Assembly: GCF_900162665.1 (NCBI RefSeq)
Contig: NZ_LT727811.1
Span: 637,373-701,372 of the forward strand
DNA: 64,000 bases
From: Oceanobacillus sojae
GTDB taxonomy: Bacteria > Bacillota > Bacilli > Bacillales > Amphibacillaceae
Direction of reading: 5' to 3'
The notes beneath the pieces are model-generated. The model saw only the letters and a program-made list of their open reading frames with translations, ran no database searches and had not been told where the DNA came from. The position numbers and the translations under genes are program-made. Positions 850 through 56,135 of this stretch are shown here, one piece after another. Every line of letters begins with the position of its first letter. Positions within the stretch are counted from its first letter, which is position 1.

Positions 850-858
850 TTATAGGAT

Positions 859-892
859 GTTCAAAAAGTCCGCTAAAAATGCCTTTTTGAAC
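859..892. repeat. Minimal copy of the GTTCAAAAAG palindromic element
   Basis: This 34-bp sequence starts GTTCAAAAAGTCC and ends CTTTTTGAAC, so it consists almost only of the terminal inverted repeats seen in longer copies at 33715, 40949 and 55864. The left flank TATAGGAT is also shared with the copy at 40949. It lies inside the ssb-rpsR transcript and would form a hairpin in the mRNA. Confidence 0.7.
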
Positions 893-922
893 TCTCATTT
901 AAATTAATTTAGTGAAGACGAT

Positions 923-18462: not shown

Positions 18463-18640
18463 GTTCAAAAAGAGCTGAATTGAGTCTTGAAGATGAAGGC
18501 ATCATATTTTGGTGACTTCTACATTCCCCAACTCAGCCGGGAAATTCCAGTAGAAAGAAATTGCCTCGCCGCTTCATCATCCAGAAACCCTTGAAGCGCT
18601 CTCCACGTACATCGTAAATCCACACTTATAACATTCCTAT
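18463..18640. repeat. GTTCAAAAAG element, variant copy without a right end
   Basis: The left end GTTCAAAAAGAGC matches the family, but no CTTTTTGAAC is found to the right; the right boundary given is approximate. The interior folds separately: TTCTAC with GTAGAA, and ATTCCC with GGGAAAT, plus GAAGATGAAG facing CTTCATC. The core is unrelated to the copies at 33715 and 40949. It occupies most of the gene-free noc-rsmG gap. Confidence 0.5.
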
Positions 18641-31481: not shown

Positions 31482-33708
<2,227 letters not shown>

Positions 33709-33714
33709 GAGGTT

Positions 33715-33922
33715 GTTCAAAAAGTCCAATAAAAATGACGCGACGAATTTCTGCGTTGACGAATTTTTTCCGATACTCACGTATTGTTAAGCATAGAGGA
33801 ACTTCTGTTAAAAACGTCCACGTCCTGTGGACAACACAGAAGTCACCACATCCTGTGGAAGTCCGTTCGAAAAAAATTCGTCGCCTTGAACTTCTTGGTC
33901 CTATTTATCAGACTTTTTGAAT
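33715..33922. repeat. GTTCAAAAAG element, long copy between gyrB and gyrA
   Basis: Ends are GTTCAAAAAGTCC and GACTTTTTGAAT. The arm 33758-33773 (GACGAATTTTTTCCGA) pairs with 33866-33882. An extra central part holds perfect small hairpins: ACTTCTGT/ACAGAAGT (33801/33836), GTCCAC/GTGGAC (33816/33827) and CCACA/TGTGG (33846/33854). It shares conserved blocks with the copy at 40949: CGTTGAC, CCGATACTCACGTATT and GTCGCCTTGAACTTCTTGG. The whole copy would be transcribed in the gyrBA message. Confidence 0.88.
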
Positions 33923-33975
33923 CCACATTTTAAGGGAAATCACTGAAATAATAGTGATTGGGAGGTTATTAGACT

Positions 33976-36498
33976 ATGGCAGAGGAAAATCGTCCGAGTG
34001 TCCAGGAAATAAATATAAGTAAAGAGATGCGTACATCCTTCTTGGATTATGCGATGAGCGTTATCGTAGCAAGAGCATTACCCGATGTCCGCGATGGAAT
34101 GAAGCCCGTCCATCGCCGTATCCTTTACGCAATGAATGATCTGGGAATGCACTCTGACAAAGCATTTAAAAAATCAGCACGTATCGTGGGAGAGGTTATT
34201 GGTAAGTACCATCCACATGGTGATTCGGCTGTTTATGAGACAATGGTAAGAATGGCGCAGGATTTCAGTTACCGGTATATGCTCGTGGACGGGCATGGGA
34301 ACTTTGGTTCCGTCGATGGTGATTCGGCAGCGGCAATGCGTTATACAGAAGCACGTATGTCCAAGATTTCCATGGAGCTTCTTCGAGACATTAATAAAGA
34401 CACGATCGACTACCAGGATAACTATGATGGTGCTGAACGTGAACCGGTCGTGTTCCCGGCACGATTCCCTAATTTACTTGTTAACGGAACATCGGGGATT
34501 GCAGTTGGGATGGCAACGAATATTCCACCGCACCATTTAGGCGAAACGATTGATGCTGTACTGGCTGTAAGTAAAAATCCGGATATAACAGTAGACGAAA
34601 TTATGGAAAGCTATCTTCCTGGTCCAGACTTCCCTACGGCAGGTCAAATCTTAGGAAGAAGTGGTATCCGCAAAGCCTATGAAACAGGAAAAGGATCTAT
34701 CACCATCCGTGCAAAAAGCAATATTGAGCAGGGTAAAAATGATAAAGAAACGATTATTGTGACAGAGCTTCCTTATCAGGTGAACAAGGCTAAGCTTATT
34801 GAAAAAATAGCTGAACTTGTCCGTGATAAAAAAATTGATGGTATCACAGATCTTCGTGATGAATCTGACCGTAATGGGATGCGGGTTGTAATAGAGCTGA
34901 GAAGAGATGCAAATGCGAATGTGGTATTGAATAATTTATATAAGCATACTTCTTTGCAGACAACTTTTGGTATTAATATGCTTGCTCTTGTTGACGGGCG
35001 TCCAAAAGTATTAACGATTAAACAATGCTTAGAATACTATTTAGAGCATCAAAAAGAAATTATCAAGCGCCGTACAGCGTTTGAGTTAAATAAAGCAGAA
35101 GCACGTGCACATATTCTAGAAGGCTTGCGTATTGCGCTTGATCATTTGGATGAGGTTATTTCCTTAATCCGTAATTCCAAAACAGCAGATATAGCAAGAG
35201 AAGGTTTAATCGAACGCTTTGAGTTGTCTGAAAAACAGGCTCAGGCAATTCTTGATATGCGTCTGCAGCGTTTAACAGGCTTGGAACGCGAAAAGATTGA
35301 AGAAGAATACAAAGAGCTTCAGGCATTAATTGCGGAGTTAAAAGCAATCTTAGCTGACGAAGAAAAAGTATTAGAAATCATTCGTGAAGAGCTTATTGAA
35401 GTTAAAGAGAAGTTTCGTGATGACCGCCGTACAGAAATTGTTGCAGGCGGAGCAGGTTTCTTTGAGGATGAAGATCTTATTCCTGTAGAGAATATTGTTA
35501 TCACGCTGACACATCAGGGTTATATTAAACGATTACCGGCGTCTACGTATCGTACACAGCGCCGCGGCGGCCGTGGTATTCAGGGAATGGGAACGAACGA
35601 GGATGACTTTGTAGAGCATCTTGTATCTACCTCAACCCATGATACGGTTCTATTCTTTACGAACAAAGGGAAGGTTTATAAAACAAAAGGATATGAGGTT
35701 CCTGAGTTTAGCCGTACTGCCAAAGGCATCCCGATTATTAATTTGCTTCAGGTGGAAAAAGGAGAATGGGTCAATGCAGTTATCTCTGTATCCGAGTTTG
35801 ATGAAGACCACTTCCTGTTCTTTACGACGAAGTACGGGATTGCGAAACGCACCTCCCTTGAAAAGTTCAAGAATATCCGCAAAGGCGGACTCATTGCTGT
35901 AAACCTGCGGGAAGAGGATGAATTAATTTCTGTTCGTATGACTGATGGCGAAAAGGAAATTATGATTGCGACGAAAAACGGTTATTTAATCCGTTTTGAA
36001 GAAGAACAGATGCGCCCAATGGGAAGAACAGCGGCAGGGGTAAAAGGAATTTCCCTTCGTGAGGATGATGAGGTAGTCTCCATGGAAATTATGGAAGAAA
36101 GCTCTAAAATTCTTCATGTAACAAGTAAAGGATTTGGAAAGCAGACACCGGAAGATGAATATCGCCGTATTAACCGTGGCGGTAAAGGTGTATTTACCTG
36201 TAAGCTTGATGAAAAAACAGGACATGTTGTCGCTGTGAAGGCGATCCATGGTGATGAAGATTTAATGGTTATTACCGCCCAAGGCGTGCTTATTCGTATC
36301 CAGGTATCCGATATTTCTCAAACAGGCAGAAACACCAAAGGAGTGCACTTGATTCGTTTGCAGGATGATGAAGAAGTTGCAACTGTAGCCCGGATTGAGA
36401 AAGAAGAAGAGGTAGTGGAAGAAGCAGAACAAGCTGAACAGGAAGAGCAAACGGAAGTATCTGAAGAGAATAACGAAGCGGATGATAATAACGAATAA
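33976..36498 (+). CDS. gyrA: DNA gyrase subunit A
   Basis: This 840-residue subunit has the breakage-reunion domain with the catalytic Tyr in [11 protein letters not shown] (about 122) and six C-terminal beta-pinwheel repeats that wrap DNA, with a GyrA-box-like [10 protein letters not shown] near 527. The quinolone region reads [17 protein letters not shown], with wild-type-like Ser and Glu. The last 30 residues are very acidic. GGGAGG precedes the ATG. Confidence 0.98.
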
Positions 36499-36547
36499 CA
36501 GGCAAGGTTTTTAGTCTATATTGTTATCAAATGATGCTATAAAGAGG

Positions 36548-36597
36548 ATCAGCCGCCTAGCTATGGAAAATATAGCCGGCGGCTGATTTTTTATTTA
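36548..36597. terminator. Bidirectional terminator of gyrA and yaaC
   Basis: ATCAGCCGCC and the following bases pair with GGCGGCTGAT in a long GC-rich stem with a T-run on the plus side, between convergent genes. Confidence 0.9.
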
Positions 36598-37544
36598 TTT
36601 TCATCCTGAAAATTTTGCAATAAACACTGGCTGATAAGGGCTGGTGTTTTTTGCTGTGTTATTTTCAAAAATTGTTGAATAAGCGGATACTCCCGATCGG
36701 CCTTGGTTTGAATAAGCTCTCCCCACCACTCCGTCTCATACCGGCAAATCATGCTTAAATTAAACAAAAGAAGATAATGTACCAGAATCTCAGAGTAAGG
36801 GAAATAGTCTGTTCTTGCTGCCGGGAAATAAATAAATTCGTTATGCAGATGATAACGGAAAGGCCCATTCCAATCTTTGACGGATTCTGTCAGGTAAAGC
36901 TGCAATTCTCCCTCTTTTTGTTGGATATCCCCGATAGGAGGCAGAAATGGACGAATACGCTCTATAAATGTAGATTCTTTTAAATAAAATCCATCTAAAA
37001 CGCGATCCGGGAAGCGGAGCTGTTTACTTTCTTTTTCTCCGACAATTATCATAGGTGTTTCTTTATGAAAGCTCCAAATATTACTTAATTCTGGAATAGA
37101 ACGTAGCAGGAGCTGCATGGAAACACGGTTTAAAGGGAAAGGATGGTGAGAAAATAAATAACGGCTGACATAGGGAAATAACCCCTGCTGCTGAATTTTG
37201 ACCTCATCCTCGATAAAACGATAATCTTTGCGCTTTCTTTTCCGGGCTGTCAAACCGTGTGCAAGTACACCTGTCGTTTCCGGATAATCAGGACGTTTTG
37301 TCAGCAGCCAGCCTTTTAAAAGATGTACCATTCCATAAAAAGATAGAACAGGCTGGACCAGAATACTGCTCTTTTGGCTGGATTCCATAAAATGGCTTCC
37401 ATTACTGATGTAGTGTATGAAAGCAGAACTGTTTTGATAGCTTTTTGTTTTCGTATCATCCTGAGATTGATAACTTTTTTCTAAATAATTTTGCGCATTT
37501 TCTTCTGCTGTTAAAAACGAATAAATGTCTTCATAAGGTATCAT
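36591..37544 (-). CDS. yaaC: YaaC-like protein of unknown function
   Basis: The 317-residue length matches Bacillus YaaC, encoded at the same place between gyrA and guaB on the opposite strand. Recognisable family features are the N-terminal YLEKSYQ segment, the LVQPVLSFYGMVHLLKGWLL helix and the LAHGLTARKRKRKDYRF segment. No catalytic motif or membrane anchor is evident. The function is unknown, and it is transcribed toward gyrA. Confidence 0.88.
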   Translation of the reverse strand: MIPYEDIYSFLTAEENAQNYLEKSYQSQDDTKTKSYQNSSAFIHYISNGSHFMESSQKSSILVQPVLSFYGMVHLLKGWLLTKRPDYPETTGVLAHGLTARKRKRKDYRFIEDEVKIQQQGLFPYVSRYLFSHHPFPLNRVSMQLLLRSIPELSNIWSFHKETPMIIVGEKESKQLRFPDRVLDGFYLKESTFIERIRPFLPPIGDIQQKEGELQLYLTESVKDWNGPFRYHLHNEFIYFPAARTDYFPYSEILVHYLLLFNLSMICRYETEWWGELIQTKADREYPLIQQFLKITQQKTPALISQCLLQNFQDENK

Positions 37545-37778
37545 TACTCCAGCTCCATAACTATTTAAATATTTTGAATCTATCCTCTATTTGTACTTAT
37601 ATGTCGGGTGCTTGAAAAAGCTTAAAAGATAGAGTAATGTAAGTAAAAATAGATATTTGCTACTACTTTCACAAAGGCGGTATTTTTTAAGCAGTTTCTC
37701 CGATATCGTATGAAGATATACCTTGAAAACTGTATAGCATCTGCAAAATGAAGTGAAACGATGTTGTAAATTCAATGA

Positions 37779-39269
<1,491 letters not shown>

Positions 39270-39313
39270 TGAAATGAATTTCATCTGATGACAAATTTGT
39301 GTCATACGGTCGT

Positions 39314-39355
39314 AAAAAAAATAGATAGAGGATGTTGCTCTATCTATTTTTTTAT
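39314..39355 (+). terminator. Terminator of guaB
   Basis: AAAAAATAGATAGAG pairs with CTCTATCTATTTTTT around a 7-base loop, ending in a T-run. Confidence 0.92.
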
Positions 39356-39539
39356 GAATTTTTATGGTAAAATGTGAAGCGTGCTTAGCAGAATACATAG
39401 AACTTATCACAGTGCTGCGCTTTTGGTCGGAGAGGGTAATTTAAAAGCCCTGTTCAGCGAGAAAAAGAGCGGGAAAAGTCACAAAATGAAGTGTCGTTTT
39501 ATGTAAACAAGCTATATTATTAAACGGAGGTACGGAAAT

Positions 39540-40877
39540 GTGAGAAAGTCTATGAATAAATTATTTCTTTTGGTGGCTGCGGCAGCGCTTGTATTAACAT
39601 CTTTAGGAACACCAGCCATGTCTGTTTATGCAGATGAATTAGATTTAGAGGCAGAATCAGCAATTTTAGTGGATGCAGAAACGGGTAAAATTTTATATGC
39701 GAGAGATCCGGATGTGGCATTGCCTCCTGCTAGCATGACAAAAATGATGACAGAATATCTTGTTTGGGAAGCAATTGAAAACGGCGATATTTCTTGGGAT
39801 ACTACAACACAAATTAGTGATTATGCATATAGTATATCTGCAAATGCTGATTTTTCTGGTGTCGGCTTAACGCAGCAAAAGGACTATACAGTAAAACAAT
39901 TATATGATGCAATGGCAATTAACTCAGATAATGCTACCTCCATTGCGTTGGCGGAATTAATTGCAGGATCTGAAAGTGAATTTGTTACATTGATGAATGA
40001 AAAGGGCGAGGAATTAGGCCTTCAGGAATATAAATTTGTTAATTCAACAGGGTTAGATAATGAGAGTTTAGGGGATAACTATCCAGAAGGAACCAGCCCC
40101 AATGATACAAACCTGTTATCAGCCCGTGCAGCTGCCATTTTAGCGACAGCTTTAGTGAATGACTACCCGGAAGCATTGGAAGTATCCAGTATACCGAGTA
40201 CAGAATTTGACGGGCAGGAAATTGACAACTGGAATTATATGCTGGATCATGATTCTGTGAACCTGGAACAATATTATTATGAAGGTGTAGACGGCTTGAA
40301 AACGGGTCATACAGATCTTGCAGGCTATGCTTTTACAGGAACAGCAGAACGTGATGGAAGACGCCTTATTACCGTTGTTATGAAAACATCCAGTATGGAA
40401 AAACGCTTTGAAGAAACGGCAAAGCTGCTGGATTATGGATTTGATGAATTTGAAACACAGGAATTATTCCCGGCAGGATATCAAGAAGAAGGCGAAGAAA
40501 CCATTCCTGTCGCAAAAGGGAAAGAAAAAGAAGTAAATATTGGTATTAATAATGCTATCCAGGTTCCTGTGAAATCAGGTGAGGAAGAGCTGTATCATTT
40601 AGAATATGCGTTAGACGAAGATAAGCTGAATAGCAATGGTGAACTGGAAGCACCAATAGAAGCAGATGAAGTAATCGGAACAGTTAACGTTGTCTATGAT
40701 GGAGAAGAAGAAGATTTTGGTTACGTTTCGGATGAGGCGAGTGAGGAAAGCTACGAATTAGTTGCTATGGATTCTATTGAAAAAGCGAACTGGTTTATGC
40801 TTACTTTACAATCCATCGGTGATTTCTTCGTAAACATGTTCCAGGGGGCGTACAACTGGGTGACAGGACTTTTTTAA
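39540..40877 (+). CDS. dacA: D-alanyl-D-alanine carboxypeptidase (PBP5)
   Basis: This 445-residue low-molecular-weight penicillin-binding protein has a signal peptide ending near SVYA, the S-x-x-K motif in PPASMTKMM, SDN in INSDNATS and KTG in GLKTGHTD. An all-beta domain and a C-terminal amphipathic helix that holds it to the membrane follow. It trims stem pentapeptides of peptidoglycan. The start is GTG, nine bases after GGAGG. The C-terminal half is unusually acidic, as in salt-tolerant Bacillaceae. Confidence 0.96.
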   Translation: MRKSMNKLFLLVAAAALVLTSLGTPAMSVYADELDLEAESAILVDAETGKILYARDPDVALPPASMTKMMTEYLVWEAIENGDISWDTTTQISDYAYSISANADFSGVGLTQQKDYTVKQLYDAMAINSDNATSIALAELIAGSESEFVTLMNEKGEELGLQEYKFVNSTGLDNESLGDNYPEGTSPNDTNLLSARAAAILATALVNDYPEALEVSSIPSTEFDGQEIDNWNYMLDHDSVNLEQYYYEGVDGLKTGHTDLAGYAFTGTAERDGRRLITVVMKTSSMEKRFEETAKLLDYGFDEFETQELFPAGYQEEGEETIPVAKGKEKEVNIGINNAIQVPVKSGEEELYHLEYALDEDKLNSNGELEAPIEADEVIGTVNVVYDGEEEDFGYVSDEASEESYELVAMDSIEKANWFMLTLQSIGDFFVNMFQGAYNWVTGLF

Positions 40878-40948
40878 TTAATTTCTCCAGAAACCTTGCA
40901 ACCTGATATGAAATAGCTTATGATATACAATAATTCATAATATAGGAT

Positions 40949-41093
40949 GTTCAAAAAGTCCAATAAAGATGACACGGCGATTTTCTTCGTTGACTACCTT
41001 TTTCCGATACTCACGTATTATAAGACATACGCTCCGTTCGTAAAAAGGTAGTCGCCTTGAACTTCTTGGTCCTATTTATCGAACTTTTTGAAC
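40949..41093. repeat. GTTCAAAAAG element, copy between dacA and serS
   Basis: The 145-bp element has ends GTTCAAAAAGTCC and AACTTTTTGAAC. Its arm GACTACCTTTTTCCGA (40992-41007) pairs with 41037-41053, and the apex holds CGTAT/ATACG. Conserved blocks match the gyrB-gyrA copy, but the arm sequence differs on both sides in a way that keeps pairing. It ends about 11 bases before a TATAAT that probably belongs to the serS leader. Confidence 0.9.
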
Positions 41094-41114
41094 ACGTACT
41101 AATATATAATGTGT

Positions 41115-55681: not shown

Positions 55682-55863
55682 GGTGTCGACAGTGATTTGA
55701 AAATGAATTAAATTGTCGTTTATGAACAATGGAATCAATTATTTATGCAGGTGGAACAATTAATAGTCAAAAGATAGAAGAATTCCTTGCAGGGAGTATA
55801 TTCAAACAAGCATATTTGGAGGATAATATTACATACAAAAAGACAGAATAGCTTATAGAGGAT

Positions 55864-56032
55864 GTTCAAAAAGTTCCTAAATGAGTGCTCCTTCATTTAG
55901 ATGTACTCTTGATCCATTTACCTCACTATACTGCTGCCTTTCAGCAAAGCTGAAAGGCGTGTGAAGGGTAACTCACACGAATGGATCAAATTCATATTTT
56001 AGCACATCATACGAGCAAGAATGATTTTGAAC
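55864..56032. repeat. GTTCAAAAAG element with a different core
   Basis: Ends are GTTCAAAAAGT and GATTTTGAAC, with flanks AGGAT and ACGCAC like the copy at 40949. The core is unrelated: TTGATCCATT pairs perfectly with AATGGATCAA, and GCCTTTCAGC with GCTGAAAGGC around AAA. It shares only its termini with other copies. Confidence 0.75.
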
Positions 56033-56135
56033 ACGCACATATAGAATTGTTTAAGATATACACATTCTTATGTTTTAAATAAATTCTATTTGGGAAGATA
56101 TAGGATGTAACCATTATTAAAGGAGTGAATGATTC

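Follow-up and report, generated by a model that had tools for sequence, protein, structure and literature searches.

The 64,000-nucleotide (nt) stretch of the Oceanobacillus sojae genome analysed here (contig NZ_LT727811.1, positions 637,373 to 701,372, hereafter the window, numbered from its first letter) contains two copies of a dispersed hairpin element, one in the spacer between gyrB and gyrA (copy 1) and one in the spacer between dacA and serS (copy 2). Its terminal repeats, 5-bp duplications, exact empty site and dispersal mark it as mobile and similar to a miniature inverted-repeat transposable element (MITE), and comparison of its sequences gives good support to a fold that is maintained in evolution. 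We consider it likely that the element is non-autonomous and moved in trans, and that its hairpin, probably as RNA, is under selection for a function that we infer. The two copies and their parts are the following:

33709..33928, minus strand: mobile hairpin element, copy 1 (220 bp); minus is the strand with the more stable RNA fold and that of covariance model R1
33704..33708, unstranded: left target duplication TTTAA of copy 1, with the TAA stop codon of gyrB (which ends at 33708) inside
33929..33933, unstranded: right target duplication TTTAA of copy 1
33759..33770, unstranded: variable arm of copy 1, first side on the plus strand, GACGAATTTTTT
33870..33882, unstranded: partner of this arm, AAAAAAATTCGTC
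33792..33859, plus strand: Bacillaceae-1 RNA module RF01690 (68.5 bits), near the hairpin tip of copy 1
40943..41099, minus strand: mobile hairpin element, copy 2 (157 bp), the uninterrupted core
40938..40942, unstranded: left target duplication TAATA of copy 2
41100..41104, unstranded: right target duplication TAATA of copy 2; a T-box leader starts at 41105
40992..41003, unstranded: variable arm of copy 2, first side on the plus strand, GACTACCTTTTT
41042..41053, unstranded: partner of this arm, AAAAAGGTAGTC

The paired arms agree letter for letter with those given in the initial annotation of this DNA, which had placed the copies at 33715-33922 and 40949-41093. The conserved ends it recognised are present, but the true limits lie 6 bp further out, since the 5-bp duplication sits 6 bp outside the GTTC of the ends. 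An open reading frame (ORF) of at least 80 amino acids is present in neither of the two window copies examined. The element, with a core of about 155 bp, forms a dispersed family in the Oceanobacillus genome: a 236-bp query retrieved 73 matching pieces by blast, and a count of end motifs gave 118 for TGTTCAAAAAGT but 4 for its reversed control, so the copies cannot be put down to chance. As in MITEs, the ends are imperfect terminal inverted repeats (GAGGATGTTCAAAAAG / GTGCGTGTTCAAAAAG), with the family end pattern G[AT]GNNNTGTTCAAAAAG. When the flanks were scanned for exact direct repeats (offsets 2-10, lengths 3-8), a 5-bp repeat located 6 bp outside GTTC was found to be exact in 38 of 69 elements of the own genome (shuffled mean 5.8), in 81 of 160 elements in other loci (shuffled 9.2) and in 16 of 45 copies from other genera, with the consensus TWWWA. 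The sole further enrichments, at length 3/offset 7 and length 7/offset 5, lie within or around this repeat. Three head-to-tail copies with TWWWA-like junctions stand at each of two other places (L337 813-1278 and L338 670-1139), as if newer copies entered the target duplication of older ones, or as if unequal crossing-over had occurred.

The gyrB-gyrA spacer was delimited by script in 11 of 27 relatives (16 failed), and in one of the 11, genome G019, it is an exact empty site: it reads gataTTTAAGGGAAATC, with one target copy and without the element, compared with gataTTTAA-element-TTTAAGGGAAATC in the window. The remaining spacers hold other sequence, including a lone end-like TTCAAAAAGC in two relatives, G043 and G008. 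At dacA-serS the element is absent in all six relatives searched, and the flank matches adjoin with 3-25 bases between them. The target duplications, the exact empty site and this absence together identify a MITE-like mobile element. The serS leader of G008 (L327) contains an isolated GAACATCCTC close to where the window has its serS copy; this sequence resembles the outer end of the element, of which it is possibly a remnant.

Without interruption, the element is predicted to form one long imperfect hairpin on either strand. From the two window copies, the initial annotation had concluded that pairing is kept despite changes in the arms, and it had proposed a larger alignment with R-scape as a check. 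Pairing is indeed kept: covariation is real in tree-based tests, in several helices and across genera, and the larger alignments of both subfamilies and of the cross-genera set yielded significant pairs, with our own script taking the place of R-scape. In 18 copies of the own genome, 10 of 51 pairs had changes on both sides, a number that none of 500 shuffles reached (mean 4.4), and controls with a slid partner gave 2-3 such pairs; further pair types were less striking (24 versus a mean of 21.0, with 25 of 500 shuffles reaching 24). For the tree-based tests, 312 rows representing 217 places were collected, 94 places out of length and 9 identical ones were dropped, and 114 were kept. The R-scape-like script applies a G-test with average-product correction, and in its null the parsimony changes are re-placed on a FastTree tree, either uniformly or in proportion to column rates (rate-keeping). 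This null models descent, recombination between copies lies outside the model, and near-identical copies were kept. The two subfamilies, A1 (38 copies of exactly 157 nt) and A2 (39 copies of 155 nt), were tested separately, leaving 37 of the 114 rows unused. In A1, 7 of 51 structure pairs were significant under the rate-keeping and 6 of 51 under the uniform null, and when all column pairs were tested, every match lay inside the fold (6/6 and 5/5, respectively). The covarying sites are a hypervariable stem of 5-6 bp and one apical pair. In A2 the corresponding values were 6 of 46 and 5 of 46, with 2/2 all-pair matches inside the fold under either null, and the sites are two pairs flanking an A-A mismatch near the tip (judged by eye), the apical stem and the lower stems. 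When 64 of the 114 rows, all A2-like, were combined with 43 of 45 rows from other genera (107 copies), 13 of 35 fold pairs were significant and 3/3 all-pair matches fell in the fold. The long hairpin is retained in members from other orders of the class (L357-L360), and in the distant L360 the terminal stem GTTCAAAAAG/CTTTTTGAAC is swapped for GTCCGGAAAG/CTTTCCGGAC with pairing kept. Since related copies across many Bacilli have diverged in sequence and yet retain the hairpin, the fold itself appears to matter; compensatory evolution over many genera in a mobile repeat suggests that it is selected.

The initial annotation had left the choice between selection and a copying mechanism. The fold-preserving covariation on which both would rest has held up, and for the hypervariable arm pure copying could still account. 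According to this explanation, one arm of an imperfect palindrome serves as template for the other, which is rewritten by template switching or by conversion. The changes in A1 have the appearance that it predicts, namely contiguous blocks within one stretch of 5-6 bp (GAGCT, TAGCT, GAATA, GGGAG, TACCT and their complements), while most remaining A1 pairs vary little. However, mismatched intermediates occur (GAGCT with AGCTA in L094, GAACT with AGTTA in L064), isolated pairs covary in A2 and across genera, e.g., columns 22-132, 68-84 and 62-89, and the one-strand excess of G-T over A-C in the pooled data, albeit weak, is not expected from copying. We therefore regard copying as the sole cause as unlikely, even if it is the most serious of the rivals.

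The usual view of small mobile repeats is that they are remnants of insertion sequences (IS). As a further rival, the fold might be a by-product of a palindromic origin in a MITE without selection on RNA, the covariation then stemming from shared descent and recombination between copies. That transcripts of small bacterial mobile repeats are generally highly base-paired, as stated in PMC2229807, would suit such an origin. It is nevertheless improbable in view of the slid and shuffled controls and of the tree-based nulls, in which descent is modelled and recombination between copies is not. Much less probable still is movement as single-stranded DNA, in which an HUH (Y1) transposase would mobilise the hairpin as it does IS200/IS605 derivatives or REP/RAYT sequences. 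The whole element being a long imperfect hairpin on either strand would be in line with this, but the 5-bp duplications largely refute it, and the G-U bias, as far as that goes, points to RNA. IS200/IS605-type elements are not known to have inverted terminal repeats or to duplicate their target, and this kind is disfavoured because the element has both a 5-bp target duplication and inverted terminal repeats. Of the initial proposal of a structured RNA or a hairpin-DNA mobile element, mobility and a conserved fold are thus retained, without the IS200/IS605 kind. Finally, a conventional RNA gene or cis-regulatory leader that stays in place and is repeated by happenstance would explain the strong covariation and the conserved internal loops over many genera, but is barely credible given the duplications and the varying gene contexts of the copies, and as the sole explanation it is refuted by the exact empty site.

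Regarding the strand on which selection might act, the minus strand of the window (T strand in the following) is predicted to fold with lower energy than the plus strand in 112 of 113 copies (mean -50.6 versus -40.5 kcal/mol), and the same holds for 42 of 43 copies from other genera. Among pairs common to the folds of both strands, G-T exceeds A-C by 18 to 7 when A1 and A2 are pooled, where both the pooling and the binomial p of about 0.04 are our own arithmetic. These data fit only moderately with selection on the T-strand RNA. A crude ORF caller was used to survey the gene context of 187 copies (one place being counted twice); 22 of these copies overlap a longer ORF. For 174 copies with genes on both sides, the T strand was antisense to co-directional genes in 81 and sense in 49 cases, while 27 copies lie between divergent and 17 between convergent genes. 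The ratio of antisense to sense was 25/8 in the own genome and 56/41 elsewhere (p 0.15). The bias is confined to copies with an edge no more than 5 nt from an upstream stop codon (35 versus 8), and at more than 20 nt it was 39 versus 30. The gyrB copy belongs to the stop-adjacent kind, since its target TTTAA holds the stop codon. An effect in cis on the host mRNA was considered, but the mostly antisense orientation of the more stable strand speaks against it; this bias is weak outside the own genome. Also considered was an outward promoter that the end and the target would form together. At a further place (L216 784-1191 and 1220-1478) two consecutive T-box leaders, both above the T-box cut-off, each carry an insertion: in one of them a full element separates stem III from the antiterminator, and in the other the loop of stem III harbours what by eye is a mini-element.

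Several observations weigh against a mobile element with a selected RNA fold. The joint alignment of A1 and A2 (113 copies after one chimaeric row was dropped from the 114) gave 2 significant pairs, of which 1 lies within the predicted fold of 24 pairs; we take this poor result as an alignment problem, yet count it here. While target duplications and one exact empty site are found, as in MITEs, the relatives at dacA-serS also do not have the TAATA target (closest G019 and G043), so that this site is an absence and not an exact empty site. The difference in strand stability in part reflects the shared ancestry of the copies. Taken singly, neither subfamily shows a significant G-T excess among the shared pairs (9 versus 3, p 0.15; 9 versus 4, p 0.27), and in the T-strand fold itself, where G-T and A-C stand at 14/3 and 18/5 (p 0.01 each), the fold favours G-U by construction. 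The T strand, which between co-directional genes is more often antisense, is at odds with a role in host mRNA. Lastly, no transposase with the ends of the element was found among the genome's copies of the two transposase families searched, PF01609 and PF13751, or in 1.4 Mb of sequence.

These PF01609/PF13751 IS copies were rejected as partners, as their ends differ (GAGTGAATTTCATAATT or its variant; ACTCAACTTTCGCA). Element ends spaced 600-4000 bp apart were found four times in the 1.4 Mb of sequence, one place being represented twice. By eye, the longest ORFs of these four pairs do not resemble transposases, with no family search made on them. An IS4-family element of 1532 bp with ACTCAACTTTCGCA ends is present in five copies (L262-L266 681-2213); its target is similar and its ends are different, and 2 of the 5 copies have exact AT-rich 5-bp duplications, which is a lead only.

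Taken as a MITE-like element with a selected fold, the family might work as follows. A transposase acting in trans would cut the element ends, and the element would be joined to an AT-rich 5-bp target, often a TAA at the end of a gene. At least sometimes it would be transcribed, and the T-strand fold would be kept by selection, the RNA hairpin being the selected form. The likeliest use may be that operons and leaders can tolerate an insertion because the hairpin is compact, or that a host or element protein binds or processes the hairpin. Extra hairpin modules, Bacillaceae-1 included, would lodge in the loops. With dozens of natural copies per genome, the question of structure and function becomes testable.

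The covariance model R1 matched in 26 of the 28 genomes of the genus, the own genome included, with 0 to 65 matches each, whereby matches on opposite strands of one place may be counted. In the order sample, at least 66 of 299 genomes and 35 of 116 genera were positive, and in the class sample at least 42 of 348 genomes and 19 of 135 genera, many of these matches being weak; as strict filters were applied and scoring covered no more than 10 or 8 candidates per genome, the counts of both samples are lower bounds. Among plasmids and phages neither subfamily had a blast match, and viral contigs gave 0 exact matches to a 20-mer of the element. A bolder reading is that these elements constitute a family of transposable structured RNAs that extends through the class Bacilli, i.e., hairpin RNA genes of about 155 nt with selection on one strand for a fold with conserved internal loops and a hypervariable but paired stem, uptake of modules such as Bacillaceae-1 into the loops, a habit of settling at stop codons and in leaders and a job of their own, such as binding a mobility or host-tolerance protein; it is conceivable, although we lean against it.

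Additional hairpins are inserted in the loops of many copies. The insert of copy 1 scores 68.5 bits with RF01690, for which the cut-off is 35, and is thus a member of Bacillaceae-1. Tested on the element as a whole, the RF01690 model matched this insert only, with no match at 40943-41099 up to E 1. The initial annotation knew of no named family with these ends. That is correct for the core, for which an Rfam search matched no family, but the inner part at 33792-33859 had already been named. The own genome has 56 RF01690 matches, 55 of them above the cut-off. Two lie directly downstream of the 3' end of a 16S rRNA (L091, G000:C18:273500-276200), an end which we presume from the anti-Shine-Dalgarno sequence. 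Since Bacillaceae-1 matches occur there and in copy 1, the same module stands beside rRNA and in a mobile element, and thereby RF01690, a motif without known function, gains a genomic setting. Another module is a hairpin of about 30 nt, GGGACTGCGATTACTCGYCCCACC. The same hairpin (reverse strand, GGGACTGCGATTACTCGCCCCACCGAAGACATTT) is also present in the gyrB-gyrA spacer of G043 (L279) and not in that of G018 (L277), within a different repeat that both otherwise have in common, and could be a mobile unit in its own right, of a REP-like kind. Further elements have the ends in common with the family but another interior, and the window contains the following relatives:

853..898, unstranded: very short relative, barely more than both ends (25.1 bits)
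55858..56038, unstranded: type B element with another inner type; left end in common, right end degenerate, flanks TTATA/ATATA, ends judged by eye

In addition, at 18463 of the window a solo end is followed by a further inner type, GCTGAATTGAGTCTTGAAGATGAAGGC..., whose right end is not clear.

Among the matches listed in our searches no published description of the element family was found, and the closest described elements are bcr1-bcr3, a comparison made by description only. The repeat bcr1 has about 155 bp and is a predicted structured RNA. The bcr1-bcr3 repeats of the Bacillus cereus group are called structurally and functionally MITE-like and often located in untranslated regions or operon spacers (PMC3446304); they are described as occurring in B. 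cereus sensu lato alone, with a TTTAT motif linked to their mobility (PMC6542083). The element family is set apart by host range and target: it occurs in 26 of 28 Oceanobacillus genomes and, within the order sample, in at least 35 of 116 genera, and TTTAT is found in 0 of its 119 exact duplications (38 own, 81 other). Bacillaceae-1 RNA, described by Weinberg 2010 (PMC2864571), is alike insofar as the insert of copy 1 is a member; it differs in that it covers the loop module alone, the 157-bp copy being without one. The NEMIS/Correia, RUP and ERIC MITEs and pneumococcal BOX are, according to PMC2229807 and PMC10969869, small, with terminal repeats, target duplication and foldable transcripts. 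In small size, terminal repeats, target duplication and foldability the element family resembles them, whereas the 5-bp duplications separate it from IS200/IS605-type or REP elements. BOX repeats are modular as well, and the ends and target of NEMIS/Correia, RUP, ERIC and BOX are unlike those of the element family. What has been measured in the element family, compared with these repeats, is covariation across genera and the nesting of hairpin modules.

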